Below, piece after piece: positions 5,514 to 12,007 of a stretch of 12,007 nucleotides of DNA (position 1 is its first letter; the number at the start of each line of letters is the position of its first letter). The stretch covers positions 2,028-14,034 of the forward strand of contig JAPTWR010000020.1 of assembly GCA_028065135.1 (NCBI GenBank), in the 5' to 3' direction. The DNA is from Acidithiobacillus sp. (lineage in GTDB: Bacteria; Pseudomonadota; Gammaproteobacteria; Acidithiobacillales; Acidithiobacillaceae). The notes beneath the pieces were generated by a model that saw only the letters and a program-made list of their open reading frames with translations, was not told the origin of the DNA and ran no database searches. Both the position numbers and the translations under genes were made by a program.

Positions 5514-5819
5514 ATGAATCGCAACGAGTTCAAAGAACATTCGCGCATTACCGTTTCCTGGAAGGATAGAGAAGGCAAGCTGCGCCCCGGCAATTTCTAC
5601 GTCTATGCCCTCCTCAAGGACGCCATGATCGTCCGCGCCACGGACAAAGACGGTTTATTACGCAAACTTGCCTTCAGCGACGTGCTGCGCGTGGTGAAGT
5701 TTCAGGACGTGGCGCCGCAAGATCGCTACATGATCCCTGATGAGATCCTGAAAGAGGCGAACTGGAAAGATCGGGATGTGATGGTGCGTTACAGTTCTTC
5801 ACCAAGCTGCGGCAAGTAA
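5514..5819 (+). CDS. Small conserved-looking protein of unknown function
   Basis: I do not recognise this 101-residue protein. It is charged and soluble, with no signal peptide or membrane segment. The first 65 residues look beta-rich: alternating hydrophobic strands RITVSWKD, NFYVYALLKDAMIVRAT and VLRVVKF separated by basic turns, which would suit a small barrel (SH3- or Sm-like), but this is a guess. The only cysteine is near the C-terminus (SPSCGK). A strong ribosome site GAGGAG (5500-5505) stands eight bases before the ATG, and codon use resembles the neighbours, so it is probably a real gene. It is divergent from soeA and shares its control region. It converges with moaC, with only four bases between the two stop codons. 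Confidence 0.75.
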   Translation: MNRNEFKEHSRITVSWKDREGKLRPGNFYVYALLKDAMIVRATDKDGLLRKLAFSDVLRVVKFQDVAPQDRYMIPDEILKEANWKDRDVMVRYSSSPSCGK

Positions 5820-6389: not shown

Positions 6390-7919
6390 ATGACCTTTCC
6401 AAAACGCCTCTGGCTGTGGATGATTCTCTTTTTTTTCAGCATCTCTGCACAAGCCGATCTGCGCTTTTTGCTGCCGCCGGTCAGCAGCCCGGCGGTGATG
6501 TACGCCGCGTTCACGCCGCTCGCCAAGTATCTGAGCCAGGCAATAGGCCAAAAGGTCACCCTCAGCTTCAGTGCCAACCTGGAAAACTTCTATAATGAGG
6601 CCGAGAAACCGACGGCACAGATTGCCCTGTTCTGCCCGATTTCCTATATTCGCACCGCGCATACCGAAGCCTACCGACCACTGGTCGCGGTGACACCCAC
6701 CCCTGGCGGGAATCATAGTGTGATTGTCGTACGCAAGGATAGCCACATTCATAGGATCCTCCAACTCCGCAACCAGAGCTTCGTGATGGGAGATCCGGCC
6801 TGTGCGGCTTCATCGCTGATTCCCCTGTCGCTGTTCCACGAAGTGGGACTCACGCGCAAAAGCTTCAGCACCTTTCGCCAGAGCGGCTCTGACCAAAGCG
6901 CGCTGATGGACGTGGCCGCACGTTTCTATGATGCAACGGCCGTGGCAGAAAACGTGGCGGCGCCCTACTTGCGTTCAGGCAGTTTGCGCGTTATCGCCCG
7001 CGCTGATGTAGGGCCAGGCGACCTGCTAGCCGCCTCATCCGAGGTTCCGGCGATGGTACGATCGCGCCTGACTGCCGCTTTTTTACAGGCTTATCGGGCC
7101 GATCCAGCCGCTCTCCATGCTTTGGGTGGGCTGGCTGCGGGCTTTCAGCCCATCAGCGATGAAGACTACAATGTGCTGCGTACGCTCTATAAGGACATAC
7201 ATGGTGTCGCCTTGAATCCCAAGATTCGACAGGAAGCATTGACACTCGGTATCCCGCCCACGTTCACCCCCCTCTCTGCCTATCGTATTTTTGCGCCGCT
7301 GCAAGCGACATTATCTCACATCACCCAGCGCCCTGTCCGAATGGTCATTCCCCGTAATGAGGAGACATATGTCGCAGATGGGCGCAAGGGCCGTTTTGAC
7401 TTCGCGTTACTGACGCCCAAAATGGTACCGGCGGAGAACAACTGGATGATTCCGCTCGCGGAATCTGTGCCGAACAGACGCGAACAAGGGCTAGCCATCA
7501 TCGCGCGCGATACCGCGCAGGGGACCAAGTTTAGATTATCCGACCCGCTATCGGTCGCCTACGCCAGCCCCTATTGCAGTGGGAAGTCCATTGTGACGAA
7601 AAAGCTGCATAAACTCGCAGACGGACGCACCATCGTTTGGTTGGCCGTAGGATCGGAACGCGCCGTATTCACCCATTTGGCCGACGGCAAAGCGCAATTG
7701 GGCGTTGTGCGGGTAGCAACCATCACTGCCCGGGAAAAGGAATTACCCGGAACCTGGTCTATTATACAAAACGGGGGGGATGCGCCAGCCTGGACACTGG
7801 CCGCCAATCGGCGGTTGTCGCCGGAGTTGCGCGATCGTGTGGAAAAGAAGATCCTGGCGCTACCCGCAGAGGCCATGAAGGACACGGGCTTTCAGAACTT
7901 TAGTTCGCCCAGACCATGA
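6390..7919 (+). CDS. Periplasmic PhnD-family binding protein with two tandem domains
   Basis: Probable ligand-sensing partner of the adjacent kinase. The 509-residue protein has a signal peptide (basic MTFPKRLW, hydrophobic [13 protein letters not shown], cleavage likely after AQA22). Domain 1 spans about 24-275 and domain 2 about 288-505. They share pattern: [19 protein letters not shown] and ALFCPISY in the first against [19 protein letters not shown] and ALLTPKMV in the second. At the position of the DPxSTSG ligand loop of phosphonate-binding relatives both carry cysteine: GDPACAASS (C138) and ASPYCSGKS (C396). The only other cysteine is C82. No permease or ATPase gene is nearby, which argues for sensing rather than uptake, as in AioX or the TtrS sensor domain. 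ATG at 6390 has AGGAAG (6379-6384) five bases before it. A TTG at 6354 is rejected because it lies in the promoter. The stop overlaps the kinase start (ATGA). The ligand is not known; a sulfur oxyanion is inferred. Confidence 0.85.
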
Positions 7920-9481
7920 ACAGTTCTTTCAAGGACAACCAGGTATCGGCGCTCCGCAGCGCGTCTCCGGACCCGCGTGAGGTAAGCACATTACACACCT
8001 TCTTGGCGCACATCCTGCGCAAGTTGACCCGGTCCTATATCGTGGTGGTGCATCCCATTTTGCGGTCTTGGCAGAATATGACCTGGCGTGCCAAGAGCAT
8101 GGCTTTTGTGCTCTTGCTGGTGGCGCTCATCTATCTTTTGATTGCCCTCTTTCTGTATACCTCTGTACGTACGGATCTTACCAGTCAGGTGCAGACTGAA
8201 CTGATGCGCCTGACCCAGAATCTGGCCAGCGACGCCGCAGATCCGTTGCTCCTCAAAGATGGCGGCAAACTCAGTAAGCTAGCAAACTCCAATAACCCTT
8301 TAGTGCGCTCGATCGTGGTGGTCAACCACTTGGGCGTTATTGTCGCCAGCAAGAATATTTCGCAACTGGGGCAGGTCATTCGGCTGCCACTACCCGATAT
8401 GGCGAATCATCAGACCGATCAGTTTATGGCCCCTATCCTGGCGGGCGGGCATCGCCTCGGGGCTGTCTGGGTGAATAGCGACCGCCAGCAAATTGCTGAA
8501 CTGGTCAACCAACGATTGAATCGCACGACCAGCCGTTTGCTGATACTTGGCTTGATTACAGCTTTACTGGGTTTACTGGGTGCTTACCTGGTGAGTTTGG
8601 CAATGACGCGTCCGGTACTGCGGCTCCTTGGCGAGATTGAGAATATGGGAGCACGGCTAGGCCTTGAGGAGCGCCCGACAACACCGTGCCAACCCCTGTC
8701 CGGTGATGAATTGCATCGCCTGGAACGTGCTTTTCGTCTGACAGAGCAACGTCTCAAAGAGCACCTAACGGAACTTCGGCAGCTACATCAACGCCAGCAG
8801 GCCATGCAATGTATGGCCACTATCGGTGAGATGTCGGCGCAGGTAGCGCATGAAATTCGCAATGCCTTGTCATCTCTGCGCGGTGCCGCACGCTACCTGG
8901 TACGCCATGGGAATGAGGAAAATCAAGGGGATTTCATTTGCATCATTGAAGAAGAAGTACAACGCCTCTACGACATGACTCAGGGCTTTCTCGATTTTGG
9001 CAGGCCCTATGCCGCCATGCCCGTGGACATAGAAATCCACAGTTTGCTGAAACATAGCGTACAGCGCCACAGCATCGATCTGGAGGCTAAAGCCATCGCT
9101 ATTTCTGTGGATTGCCCTCCGTCGCTGCACGCACTGCTCGACCCATCGCTGATCGGGCAGGCACTCAGTAACCTGCTCCTCAATGCCATAGATGCCCTGC
9201 CACCAACAGGTGGGCATATCTTCCTTTACGCAGAGTCGCTGCCATACTACCAACTCAATATTGGTGTCCGCGATAACGGTCCTGGCATACCCGATGAAAA
9301 ACACAGCACTATTTTCAAGCCTTACGTCACCACCAAAACCAAAGGCAGCGGACTCGGGCTGGCCGTGGTTACCAAAATCATGATGGTGCATGATGGTGGG
9401 GTAGAACTACGCTCCACAACAAGCGGAGCAGATTTTGTCCTGCATTTGCCGCTGCGTCTCCCCCGCTCAGGTCAAAAATAG
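7916..9481 (+). CDS. tspS: Membrane sensor histidine kinase, TspS-like
   Basis: Membrane kinase of the NtrB type that phosphorylates the next gene's regulator. The 521 residues are laid out as follows: a basic cytoplasmic N-terminus of about 60 residues; TM1 at 62-82; a periplasmic domain at 83-206 with a PDC/Cache-like strand pair (SIVVVNHLGVIVASKN, 132-147); TM2 at 207-229; then HAMP and a coiled linker to about 295. HisKA follows with phosphoacceptor H312 in QVAHEIRNALSSL, then N box SNLLLNAIDA (418-427), G1 DNGPGIP (453-459) and G2 GSGLGLAVV (477-485). All catalytic motifs are intact. The ATG overlaps the stop of the binding-protein gene (ATGA), implying coupled translation. The regulator starts 40 bases downstream. 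The name TspS follows from the pairing with a sigma54 activator upstream of sox; it is inferred. Confidence 0.85.
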   Translation: MNSSFKDNQVSALRSASPDPREVSTLHTFLAHILRKLTRSYIVVVHPILRSWQNMTWRAKSMAFVLLLVALIYLLIALFLYTSVRTDLTSQVQTELMRLTQNLASDAADPLLLKDGGKLSKLANSNNPLVRSIVVVNHLGVIVASKNISQLGQVIRLPLPDMANHQTDQFMAPILAGGHRLGAVWVNSDRQQIAELVNQRLNRTTSRLLILGLITALLGLLGAYLVSLAMTRPVLRLLGEIENMGARLGLEERPTTPCQPLSGDELHRLERAFRLTEQRLKEHLTELRQLHQRQQAMQCMATIGEMSAQVAHEIRNALSSLRGAARYLVRHGNEENQGDFICIIEEEVQRLYDMTQGFLDFGRPYAAMPVDIEIHSLLKHSVQRHSIDLEAKAIAISVDCPPSLHALLDPSLIGQALSNLLLNAIDALPPTGGHIFLYAESLPYYQLNIGVRDNGPGIPDEKHSTIFKPYVTTKTKGSGLGLAVVTKIMMVHDGGVELRSTTSGADFVLHLPLRLPRSGQK

Positions 9482-9521: not shown

Positions 9522-10892
9522 ATGACAAATCCTGTATTGATTGTAGAAGACGAAAAGAATCTGCGCCGGGTACTTGTCGCGGTCCTAGAGGCAGAGGGCT
9601 ACCCGACCATCGCCGCGGAAAATGCCGAAGAAGCTTTGGGCATGATACAGACCAAGCATCCCGCCCTGGTTCTGAGCGATCAGCGACTACCCGGACTGTC
9701 GGGAACAGATCTGTTGCGCCGGATTAAGGAAACGCACCCAGAGATCCCGGTCATCATCTCCACGGCCTACGGAGAGATTGAACAGGCCGTAGAAGCCATC
9801 AAGGCGGGGGCAGAGCATTATCTGACCAAGCCGGTCGATGAAGGCGAGCTGATTGCCCTCATCCGCCAGACTTTGGCTCGGCACGGGGAATCTCTGCCCC
9901 CGCTGCACCGGGAGTTGCGCCGATATGGCCTGATTGGCGTGAGCCGCGCCATTGAGACGTTATTGGAGACCATTGATCTGGTAGCACCGGCGCCATCAAA
10001 CGTACTCATCACCGGAGAATCCGGTACCGGGAAAGAGCTGGTTGCGCGCGCACTGCATCAGGCATCGCCACGGGCCGAACAGCCTTTTGTCGCGTTCAAC
10101 TGCGGTGCCATTCCTCTGGAACTGGTGGAAAGTGAGATTTTTGGCTATGAGCGCGGCGCTTTTACCGGCGCCACCCGAGCTCAGGCGGGCAAGTTGGAAA
10201 TGGCGGCCAGTGGCACGCTCTTCCTCGACGAGGTCGGTGATATGCCACTGCCCATGCAGGTCAAGATGTTACGTGCCTTGCAGGAACGGGAATTTACCCG
10301 CCTCGGCACCCATCAGCCCCAACGCCTTGCGGCCCGCATCGTCGCGGCCACACATGTTGATCTTGCGAAGGCAGTTAGTGAAGGCCACTTTCGTGAGGAC
10401 CTGTACTATCGCCTCAATGTGATTCCGCTCCTTATCCCACCGTTGCGTCAGCGACAAGCCGATATCGCACCTTTGGTACACCATTTTCTGCGCCAAATTT
10501 GTACGGTTATCGGCCGGGATCCCATGGTCACCATCGCTCCAGACGCCCTAGCCGCCCTGGAGGCATATGAGTGGCCAGGGAACATCCGTCAACTCGAGAA
10601 TCTTCTGGAACGAATGGTTGTCCTCAATCGCCATGGCCACCTCCAGCGGAGTGATCTACCCACCGAAATCGCCCGACACCAAAGCGATAACGCTTTCCCT
10701 ACTTCTAGCAGTCCGTTCGACCTGCCGGCGCTCGAGCGCCAAACCGTACTCAACGCGCTCGAAAAGACCCGGTTCAACCAGAGCCAGGCGGCGGTTCTCC
10801 TGGGAATCAGCCGCAAACAGTTGCGCACCAAAATGAAAAACATCGGACTTCTGGGTGATCAGGATGGTGAAGACGACACCATCGACACCTGA
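9522..10892 (+). CDS. tspR: NtrC-family sigma54 activator, TspR-like response regulator
   Basis: Response regulator that, once phosphorylated, uses ATP to open sigma54-polymerase promoters. Of 456 residues, 1-120 form the receiver domain with acidic E9-D10, phosphoacceptor D53 in LVLSDQRLPG, and K103 in LTKP. The AAA+ domain (about 137-375) has Walker A GESGTGKE (165-172), the sigma54-contact loop GAFTGA (212-217), Walker B GTLFLDE (231-237) and FREDLYYRLNV (290-300). The C-terminal Fis-type helix-turn-helix is about 418-443 (NQSQAAVLLGISRKQLRTKM). Everything needed for sigma54 activation is present. No strong ribosome site precedes the ATG (only GCGAG upstream), so expression may be lower than the kinase or coupled to it. 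Two sigma54 promoters in the window (6339, 11157) are the obvious targets. Identity as TspR is inferred from position upstream of sox. Confidence 0.88.
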   Translation: MTNPVLIVEDEKNLRRVLVAVLEAEGYPTIAAENAEEALGMIQTKHPALVLSDQRLPGLSGTDLLRRIKETHPEIPVIISTAYGEIEQAVEAIKAGAEHYLTKPVDEGELIALIRQTLARHGESLPPLHRELRRYGLIGVSRAIETLLETIDLVAPAPSNVLITGESGTGKELVARALHQASPRAEQPFVAFNCGAIPLELVESEIFGYERGAFTGATRAQAGKLEMAASGTLFLDEVGDMPLPMQVKMLRALQEREFTRLGTHQPQRLAARIVAATHVDLAKAVSEGHFREDLYYRLNVIPLLIPPLRQRQADIAPLVHHFLRQICTVIGRDPMVTIAPDALAALEAYEWPGNIRQLENLLERMVVLNRHGHLQRSDLPTEIARHQSDNAFPTSSSPFDLPALERQTVLNALEKTRFNQSQAAVLLGISRKQLRTKMKNIGLLGDQDGEDDTIDT

Positions 10893-11071
10893 TGGAAGCA
10901 ATAAACGGGACACGCCATAACGAACTGGCCCTTTTGGCGCAGCAGAAGCCACCCGGAATGCACCACACGACGCTCCCGCAATCGGCGCTGCCGATCCCAG
11001 ATAACAGGAATTCAACCCGACGCCCCACGCCTCTTTCATAACTTGAATTAAAACAGCCTGATTTTATCTGG

Positions 11072-11156: not shown

Positions 11157-11172
11157 TGGCATGAAAGCTGCT
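11157..11172 (+). promoter_or_regulatory. Sigma54 (-24/-12) promoter of the sox operon
   Basis: TGGCATGAAAGCTGCT carries GG at 11158-11159 and GC at 11170-11171, the correct 12-base register, with TGGCA and TGCT conserved. It differs from consensus at the C of TGGCAC and the first T of TTGC. Transcription would start near G11183, 40 bases before the soxX-remnant ATG. The same type of promoter upstream of sox has been reported in A. caldus (from memory), and the matching activator is encoded immediately upstream. Confidence 0.8.
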
Positions 11173-11222: not shown

Positions 11223-11556
11223 ATGAAGCGCAGCTTGCGTCGACTTGTCAACCTGATGTTACTGGCTGGCTCTTCATCCGCTCTACCTTTTGGGGTAAAT
11301 GCGTACACCACCGTCGCTGATTCCACGATCCATAATATTGAGGCTGGCGCACTATCGCCGTTGATCGTGCAAAAGGAACTGGCCTGCCTGTCATGCGCGC
11401 CATGGCCCATAAAGGGAATCAGCTTTCCACAACGATTTCGGAGTCAAGTAAAGATTGGCCTATATTTCTCGGTATTCTGAAAATCTGTTCCCTTACGCAT
11501 GGTACCAGGATTTGGCAAAAATGTGGTCTTTGAATCAAACCAGAGAACAAACTTAA
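11223..11556 (+). pseudogene. soxX: Degraded soxX (cytochrome c subunit of SoxXA), frameshifted
   Basis: The first reading frame (11223-11480, 85 codons) has a good ribosome site (AGAGGAA, 11209-11215) and a signal peptide ending near NAYTT. SoxX-like YTTVADSTIHNIEAG leads to CLSC at residues 55-58, where a haem motif CxxCH is expected, but the next residue is A, not H. PIKGISFP and RFRSQVKIG follow, resembling the SoxX stretch that normally reads P-G-x-x-G-P-x-L-x-G-x-G. Homology then appears to continue in the +1 frame (11452-11556): SRYSENLFPYAWYQDLAK, like the SRYSE-x-x-L-x-x-x-x-W-D part of SoxX. That frame stops at 11554, overlapping the soxY ribosome site, and lacks the usual MPPF region and C-terminus. 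No histidine after CxxC means no normal c-type haem. It is the first gene after the sox promoter. The homology was judged by eye; an unrelated small gene is possible. Confidence 0.55.
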
Positions 11557-11570
11557 GGAGATTTTTTGTG

Positions 11571-12007
11571 ATGAATAAAACGATACATAGACGCCAGTTT
11601 TTGGGTACCACCTTAGCCACCGGGGCGGTCGCCACCGCAGCGGGAATCGGTCTGATAAAGCCCCGACTGGCCTTTGCAGATAATGTGCCGGGCTGGCCAG
11701 CCAAGGCCTTTGATGCCAAGGTCCTTAAAGATGCCATGAGCAATACCATAGGCAAAACACAAGTGGCTGTTTCATCCAAGGTTAAACTGACTGCACCCTC
11801 TATCGCCGAAAACGGTGGTGCAGTACCCGTCACTATCGAAATTGATTCGCCGATGACCGCCGATGACTATATTGCCACGGTTTACTTGTTCGTGGATCAC
11901 AATCCGACCCCCCTTACCAGCCAGTTTACCTTCACCCCGGCTTGCGGACAGGCTTATATTCAGGAACGCATCAAGATGGCCAAGACGGATAACGTCCGCG
12001 TGGTAGC
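11571..12007 (+). CDS. soxY: SoxY, sulfur-carrier subunit of SoxYZ, cut by window end
   Basis: SoxY carries thiosulfate-derived sulfur covalently on a C-terminal cysteine during periplasmic oxidation by the Sox complex. The first 145 residues are visible. A twin-arginine signal HRRQFLGTTLATGA leads to a hydrophobic stretch and cleavage near LAFADN. The family core follows: KLTAPSIAENGGAVPVTIEI, then SPM, VYLFVDHNPTP, and ERIKMAKTDNVRVVA, typical of SoxY before the GGCGG tail, which lies beyond the window. ATG at 11571 has AAGGAG (11555-11560) ten bases upstream. A GTG directly before it (11568) is seven bases away and could serve instead. It follows the soxX remnant, so its transcript probably begins at the sigma54 promoter near 11183. 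SoxZ is expected next. Confidence 0.93.
   Translation, partial: MNKTIHRRQFLGTTLATGAVATAAGIGLIKPRLAFADNVPGWPAKAFDAKVLKDAMSNTIGKTQVAVSSKVKLTAPSIAENGGAVPVTIEIDSPMTADDYIATVYLFVDHNPTPLTSQFTFTPACGQAYIQERIKMAKTDNVRVV

Follow-up and report, generated by a model that had tools for sequence, protein, structure and literature searches.

A tandem PhnD-type binding protein with conserved pocket cysteines as a candidate sensor of the TspS-TspR system in Acidithiobacillus

What is the role of a binding protein gene that stands in a sulfur-oxidation locus directly before a two-component system and has no transporter genes beside it? The stretch analyzed here, 12,007 nucleotides of Acidithiobacillus sp. (contig JAPTWR010000020.1 of assembly GCA_028065135.1; "the window" from here on), carries on its plus strand, in this order, a gene for a tandem PhnD-type binding protein that we name TspX (6390..7919, an open reading frame of 509 aa with an ATG start), tspS, tspR and soxY. 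The stop TGA of the first gene and the start ATG of the kinase merge as ATGA at 7916, an overlap already recognized in the original prediction. Of 18 tandem loci, 10 share this ATGA, one has GTGA instead and the other seven have neither. The best reading is that TspX would be an overlooked third component of TspSR, in a system built like AioXSR. On balance the comparisons below favor a three-component system, TspX-TspS-TspR, that would control sox-II and in which TspX would be the extracytoplasmic sensor, recognizing a sulfur compound via thiol chemistry.

The original prediction described the protein as two PhnD-like halves, and all the comparisons agree with it. PF12974 (Pfam) covers TspX in two stretches (3.2e-59), the profile comparison of one half against the other gave a probability of 98.2 (E 3.5e-14, 217 columns), and AlphaFold2 run on the full protein (21 sequences) produced two binding-protein units (pLDDT 78.4, pTM 0.72), i.e., two PhnD-type folds and not a single domain. 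In this full-length model the ligand loops of domain 1 (residues 133-142 and 160-178) are below 50; domain 1 modeled alone (15 sequences) had a pLDDT of 93.2. Domain 1 covers residues 22-275 (6453..7214, plus strand) and domain 2, a diverged copy, residues 280-509 (7227..7916, plus strand), behind a putative signal peptide recognized by eye (residues 1-22, 6390-6455, plus strand). In a tree the domain-2 sequences form one group on a long branch, the position of which is not settled by the tree. Since domain 2 occurs in Acidithiobacillaceae only and the halves share a cysteine/acid signature, we infer a duplication inside this lineage. Outside the window there is a second tandem PF12974 protein (P0034, 528 aa), with Cys/Ser and Gly/Ser in its halves at the two cysteine places.

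C82, C138 and C396 (codons at 6633..6635, 6801..6803 and 7575..7577, plus strand) are the sole cysteines of TspX and are all invariant in 21/21 distinct tandem proteins with identities down to 46%, a pattern that, judged from the alignment, is beyond chance. The profile alignment of the two halves pairs C138 with C396, as had been predicted, and the predicted serine of relatives at this place was found in 104/104 distant profile matches (drawn from the best 120 of 2739, with a profile that included P0030 and P0023 and a bias to ArrX-like proteins). The acids follow the same rule, E423 (7656..7658, plus strand) being aligned with D168 (6891..6893, plus strand), so that a cysteine and an acid are paired in each half. 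In the row check of the pocket, where local alignments were shortened, the domain-2 rows had a cysteine at the C138 place in 13/22 and a gap in 9/22; in the full alignment C396 is present in 21/21. The ligand-loop cysteines of the original prediction are therefore conserved, with the correction that its count had missed C82. Its idea of C138 and C396 as a functional pair fares worse. The two as one site were rejected, as they belong to separate folds by both profile comparison and AlphaFold2, and C82 with C138 is the more likely pair because both are in domain 1. Judged by the strand order of the domain-1 fold, C82 belongs to lobe 1, where it comes after a strand, and C138 to lobe 2, where it begins a helix, and thus the two should face one another over the cleft.

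The comparison with AioX shows how far the pocket has changed. AioX, ArxX and ArrX likewise have a PhnD-type fold encoded with a kinase and a regulator, and in the AioX crystal Cys106 bonds arsenite (PMC5908839). This Cys106 aligns with C82 of TspX, whereas most of the other ligand positions are not retained: in the alignment made via P0030, Tyr88 corresponds to Leu64, Ser161 to Cys138, Ser163 to Ala140 and His192 to Asp168, Tyr131 falls in a deletion and Asp210 at an alignment gap (residues counted along the AioX sequence from Tyr88 to Asp210, with spacings that match PMC5908839). Leu64, Cys82, Cys138, Ala140 and Asp168 are kept in 22/22 tandem rows (one pair of identical proteins included) and in 6/6 single-domain rows save for Ala140 (4/6); G147, a genome of another order, has Asn in place of Asp168. 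Among the 104 distant matches, the AioX-type residues prevailed (Tyr 103, Cys 99, Ser 104, Thr or Ser 101, His 101). By these alignments an oxyanion-type pocket is changed into a Leu/Cys/Cys/Ala/Asp pocket, and TspX is built like AioX yet lacks most of its pocket residues. It also differs from AioX, ArxX and ArrX by the second pocket cysteine, the tandem form and the presence of sox rather than arsenic genes as neighbors, and in the tree it is on a separate branch from six ArrX-like proteins. The predicted analogy to AioX holds for the fold, the gene set and a cysteine, with C82 and not C138 as the equivalent of the arsenite cysteine.

The other parallel that had been drawn, with TtrS, covers the PhnD-type domain, a two-component output and a sulfur signal, the last as proposed for TspX. 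TtrS and ThsS are kinases for tetrathionate and thiosulfate, respectively, with a fused PhnD-type domain (PMC5408782), whereas TspX is a separate open reading frame. In the PhnD-kinase fusions that the TtrS model retrieved, the two cysteine places hold Asn/Ala-type residues (Cys in 0/18; these rows come from 18 of the 20 best loci of the model and are TtrS-like, not proven TtrS). The TtrS kinase model had matches in 183 of 185 genomes, mostly to kinase parts and none above the cut-off.

The gene has a fixed place. It was found full or nearly full in tandem form in 18 of 25 genomes of the Acidithiobacillaceae, in addition to G004, with pieces at two contig ends, and G002, where the contig ends within the gene. 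A stump of 31-35 codons is left in G008, and no binding-protein gene was found among these 25 genomes in G011, G013, G015 and G016 (the last is 81% complete, which makes its absence weak). The search of other tspSR-sox loci proposed with the original prediction gave tspS and tspR next to the gene in 17/17 tandem loci fetched whole and soxY in 16/17, the exception being G007. This genome retains the binding-protein gene and tspSR, but behind position 13219 of its locus (L031) soxY is lacking and mreB-like and other cell-shape genes were recognized by eye. In the sister family the gene order is the same in 2/2 genomes, the protein there having one domain and both C82 and C138. The single-domain form is also present in 2/3 genomes of another order (G147 and G210), at a distance of 3.7-3.8 kb from soxY; genes around the G147 copy were read as those of a kinase, a regulator, a peptidase and a molybdoenzyme, plus moaC. 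Just 5' of the single-domain gene, in three genomes of two families, there is an M48-peptidase-like gene recognized by eye (L044 7958-9418, L045 7645-9393, L149 8756-10219). Wider profile searches at 1e-45 matched 7/369 genomes of the class and 2/398 of the phylum, among them G106 with Gly and Ser at the two cysteine places, and in the 30 loci read in the class survey both cysteines appeared outside Acidithiobacillia in G147 only. Of the 15 loci from a scan of species genomes, 13 bear the title Acidithiobacillus or Igneacidithiobacillus, and the title of the other two says no more than Proteobacteria.

The tandem form has therefore been seen in Acidithiobacillaceae only, and the single-domain form in the sister family and in a genus further removed. 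As the latter form has C82 and C138 and occupies the same operon place, the duplication is, on this distribution, secondary, and tandem architecture as the key feature was rejected. Tandem-domain sensors, which had been suggested to be unusual, are known. To our knowledge the flytraps of BvgS and EvgS are not of the PhnD family. They have two binding-protein folds in tandem like TspX, the model of which matched 4q0c in Foldseek, with the difference that the kinase is fused in BvgS and separate in TspX. Tandem flytrap sensing is described for BvgS (PMC4352136), and the single-domain orthologues indicate that the tandem form is not essential.

The link to sox rests on the two genes that follow. 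Profile matches identify them as a TspS-type histidine kinase (7916..9481, plus strand) and a TspR-type sigma-54-dependent response regulator (9522..10892, plus strand), and such a pair is located 5' of sox-II in the window and in 16/17 loci; soxY (profile match, 11499..12005, plus strand) runs past the window end. TspSR of Acidithiobacillus caldus, with the same kinase and regulator types at the same place 5' of sox, was published as a two-component system in which TspS is the proposed thiosulfate sensor (PMC6335251), so that TspX would be a third component. The published TspR site, TGTCCCAAATGGGACA (PMC6335251), is matched exactly within about 60 bases 3' of tspR in G022 and likewise in the single-domain G027, with at least one spacer change in both G019 and G026, and once more in L149, elsewhere in the locus. 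The parts of PMC6335251 available describe TspSR with no mention of the binding protein, and "phosphonate" occurs 0 times in the available text of PMC6335251, PMC5093147 and PMC12194929. A literature search on Acidithiobacillus or thiosulfate with periplasmic binding protein, kinase and sox found nothing; the 2017 TspSR paper may mention the gene.

G008, G011, G013, G015 and G016, all similar to iron oxidizers, have an orthologous kinase at 52-54% identity and no intact binding protein. Three of them have no SoxY match, and in G008 and G016 SoxY is at 61%, a level otherwise seen for second copies. Presence of the binding protein thus tracks sox-II rather than the kinase, which suits a dedicated input. 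In G013 the kinase-regulator pair adjoins a gene read as tetH, as published for TcsSR, which is termed orthologous to TspSR (PMC12194929). The stump of G008 (L097 8735-8827) adjoins moaC, and the stretch fetched around it matched neither tspSR nor soxY.

As for the rest of the window, the minus strand carries moaC, a gene recognized by eye as moaA-like, and genes for a molybdoenzyme of three subunits. A 101-aa open reading frame (5514-5819) had no Pfam or NCBIfam match and is 55-99% identical across 19 whole syntenic loci. Just 5' of soxY a short soxX-like frame (11223-11480) is without the intact haem-motif reading of G005 and G022, and the corresponding region of G014 likewise appears disturbed. 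The closest comparison genome has 91% of the sampled words of the window in common. Two weak candidate signals were recognized by eye on the plus strand, a diverged TspR site, the repeat TGGCCCTTTTGGCGCA (10926..10941), and a sigma-54 promoter of the form GG-N10-GC (11157..11172); the strict sigma-54 pattern had no match in the window and misses the latter.

A sensing mechanism can be proposed from these data. TspX would be exported, as its N-terminus suggests, and the predicted fold and pocket residues point to a binding cleft in domain 1, where a thiosulfate-, tetrathionate- or polysulfide-type compound would be held via C82 and C138 on facing walls. From the gene order and the example of AioXSR, closure of the cleft would be read by the periplasmic region of TspS, which is Cys-free and has a sub-threshold match to sCache_3_2, and TspR would then switch on sox-II, as published for A. 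caldus and in keeping with the site found in relatives. Domain 2 (C396, E423), as a diverged copy, would have a tuning or docking role. More tentatively, and with a good deal of doubt, capture might be covalent: a ligand with sulfane sulfur (tetrathionate, polysulfide or persulfide) would bridge, or react in turn with, C82 and C138 on opposite lobes, locking domain 1 and activating TspS, with the single-cysteine domain 2 adding a second, differently tuned reading.

Several observations weigh against TspX as the sensor of this system. A pattern search did not find the published TspR site in the window or in most other loci scanned. The broken soxX-like frame may mean that the locus is in decay here, and G007 keeps the gene with tspSR and no adjacent soxY. 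The kinase can exist without the binding protein, and since its orthologue is found in five genomes with no intact one, TspS/TcsS may sense alone, as in the published model (PMC6335251). Divergence of the kinase gives no support either, because in the periplasmic part TspS shares 35% identity with TcsS and a similar 33% with the kinases of the sister family, whose genomes have the binding protein (23 rows: 15 TspS, 5 TcsS, 2 sister-family and 1 from G147, with G020, G023, G024 and G025 left out). This part has no cysteine in the rows of Acidithiobacillaceae or G147 and a CC pair in the two sister-family rows (L044 10455-11960 and L045 10289-11875), where it belongs to a periplasmic insert with a CCP motif that is absent from the other rows.

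Among the alternatives, the best surviving is a sensor of a thiophilic metal or metalloid, with Cys82, Cys138 and Asp168 holding Cu(I), As(III) or a comparable ion common in mine water. Cys/Cys/Asp is a plausible soft-metal site, and AioX binds arsenite by a cysteine at the C82 place (PMC5908839); the sox neighbors in 16/17 tandem loci and the lack of metal-resistance genes among the window open reading frames scanned make this unlikely. A role of TspX as carrier or buffer of a sulfur compound used by the Sox enzymes, with no part in signaling, would explain why it tracks sox-II more than the kinase, an option rendered improbable by its adjacency to tspS in 17/17 loci, the start/stop overlap in 11/18 and the persistence in G007 with tspSR and no adjacent soxY. 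A periplasmic redox switch, in which a C82-C138 disulfide would lock the cleft with no small ligand, fits two invariant cysteines expected on opposite lobes, and appears quite improbable given that C396 is equally invariant yet partnerless in domain 2. Finally, that TspX serves an ABC transporter of phosphonate or phosphite type with genes in another part of the genome, as suggested by PF12974 membership and by some database entries titled phosphonate transporter protein, is very improbable, and a plain phosphonate transporter was rejected, as TspX reaches 95.7 bits against the PhnD (TIGR03431) cut-off of 261.1, lacks the oxyanion ligands of PhnD, PtxB and HtxB (Ser, His and Tyr replaced), and is accompanied by no transporter family in the Pfam scan of nine window open reading frames and by a PhnE above cut-off in 0/19 genomes (gene-bearing G002, G004, G009, G021 and G210 left out), where weaker ABC-permease matches occur in 14/19 (best 72.5 against 216.7 bits). 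The orphan status originally predicted is supported as regards a PhnE-class permease, for a gene with a fixed position 5' of tspSR and nearly always of sox.

With TspX as the sensing component, an oxyanion-binding fold would have been turned into a thiol pocket, and the cysteine-pocket protein 5' of tspSR is a concrete and testable candidate for a sulfur-signal sensor in bioleaching acidophiles, which might also provide a new sulfur biosensor part. If covalent capture were true, periplasmic binding proteins that take up sulfur signals by a dithiol would form a class separate from the oxyanion binders and from TtrS/ThsS.
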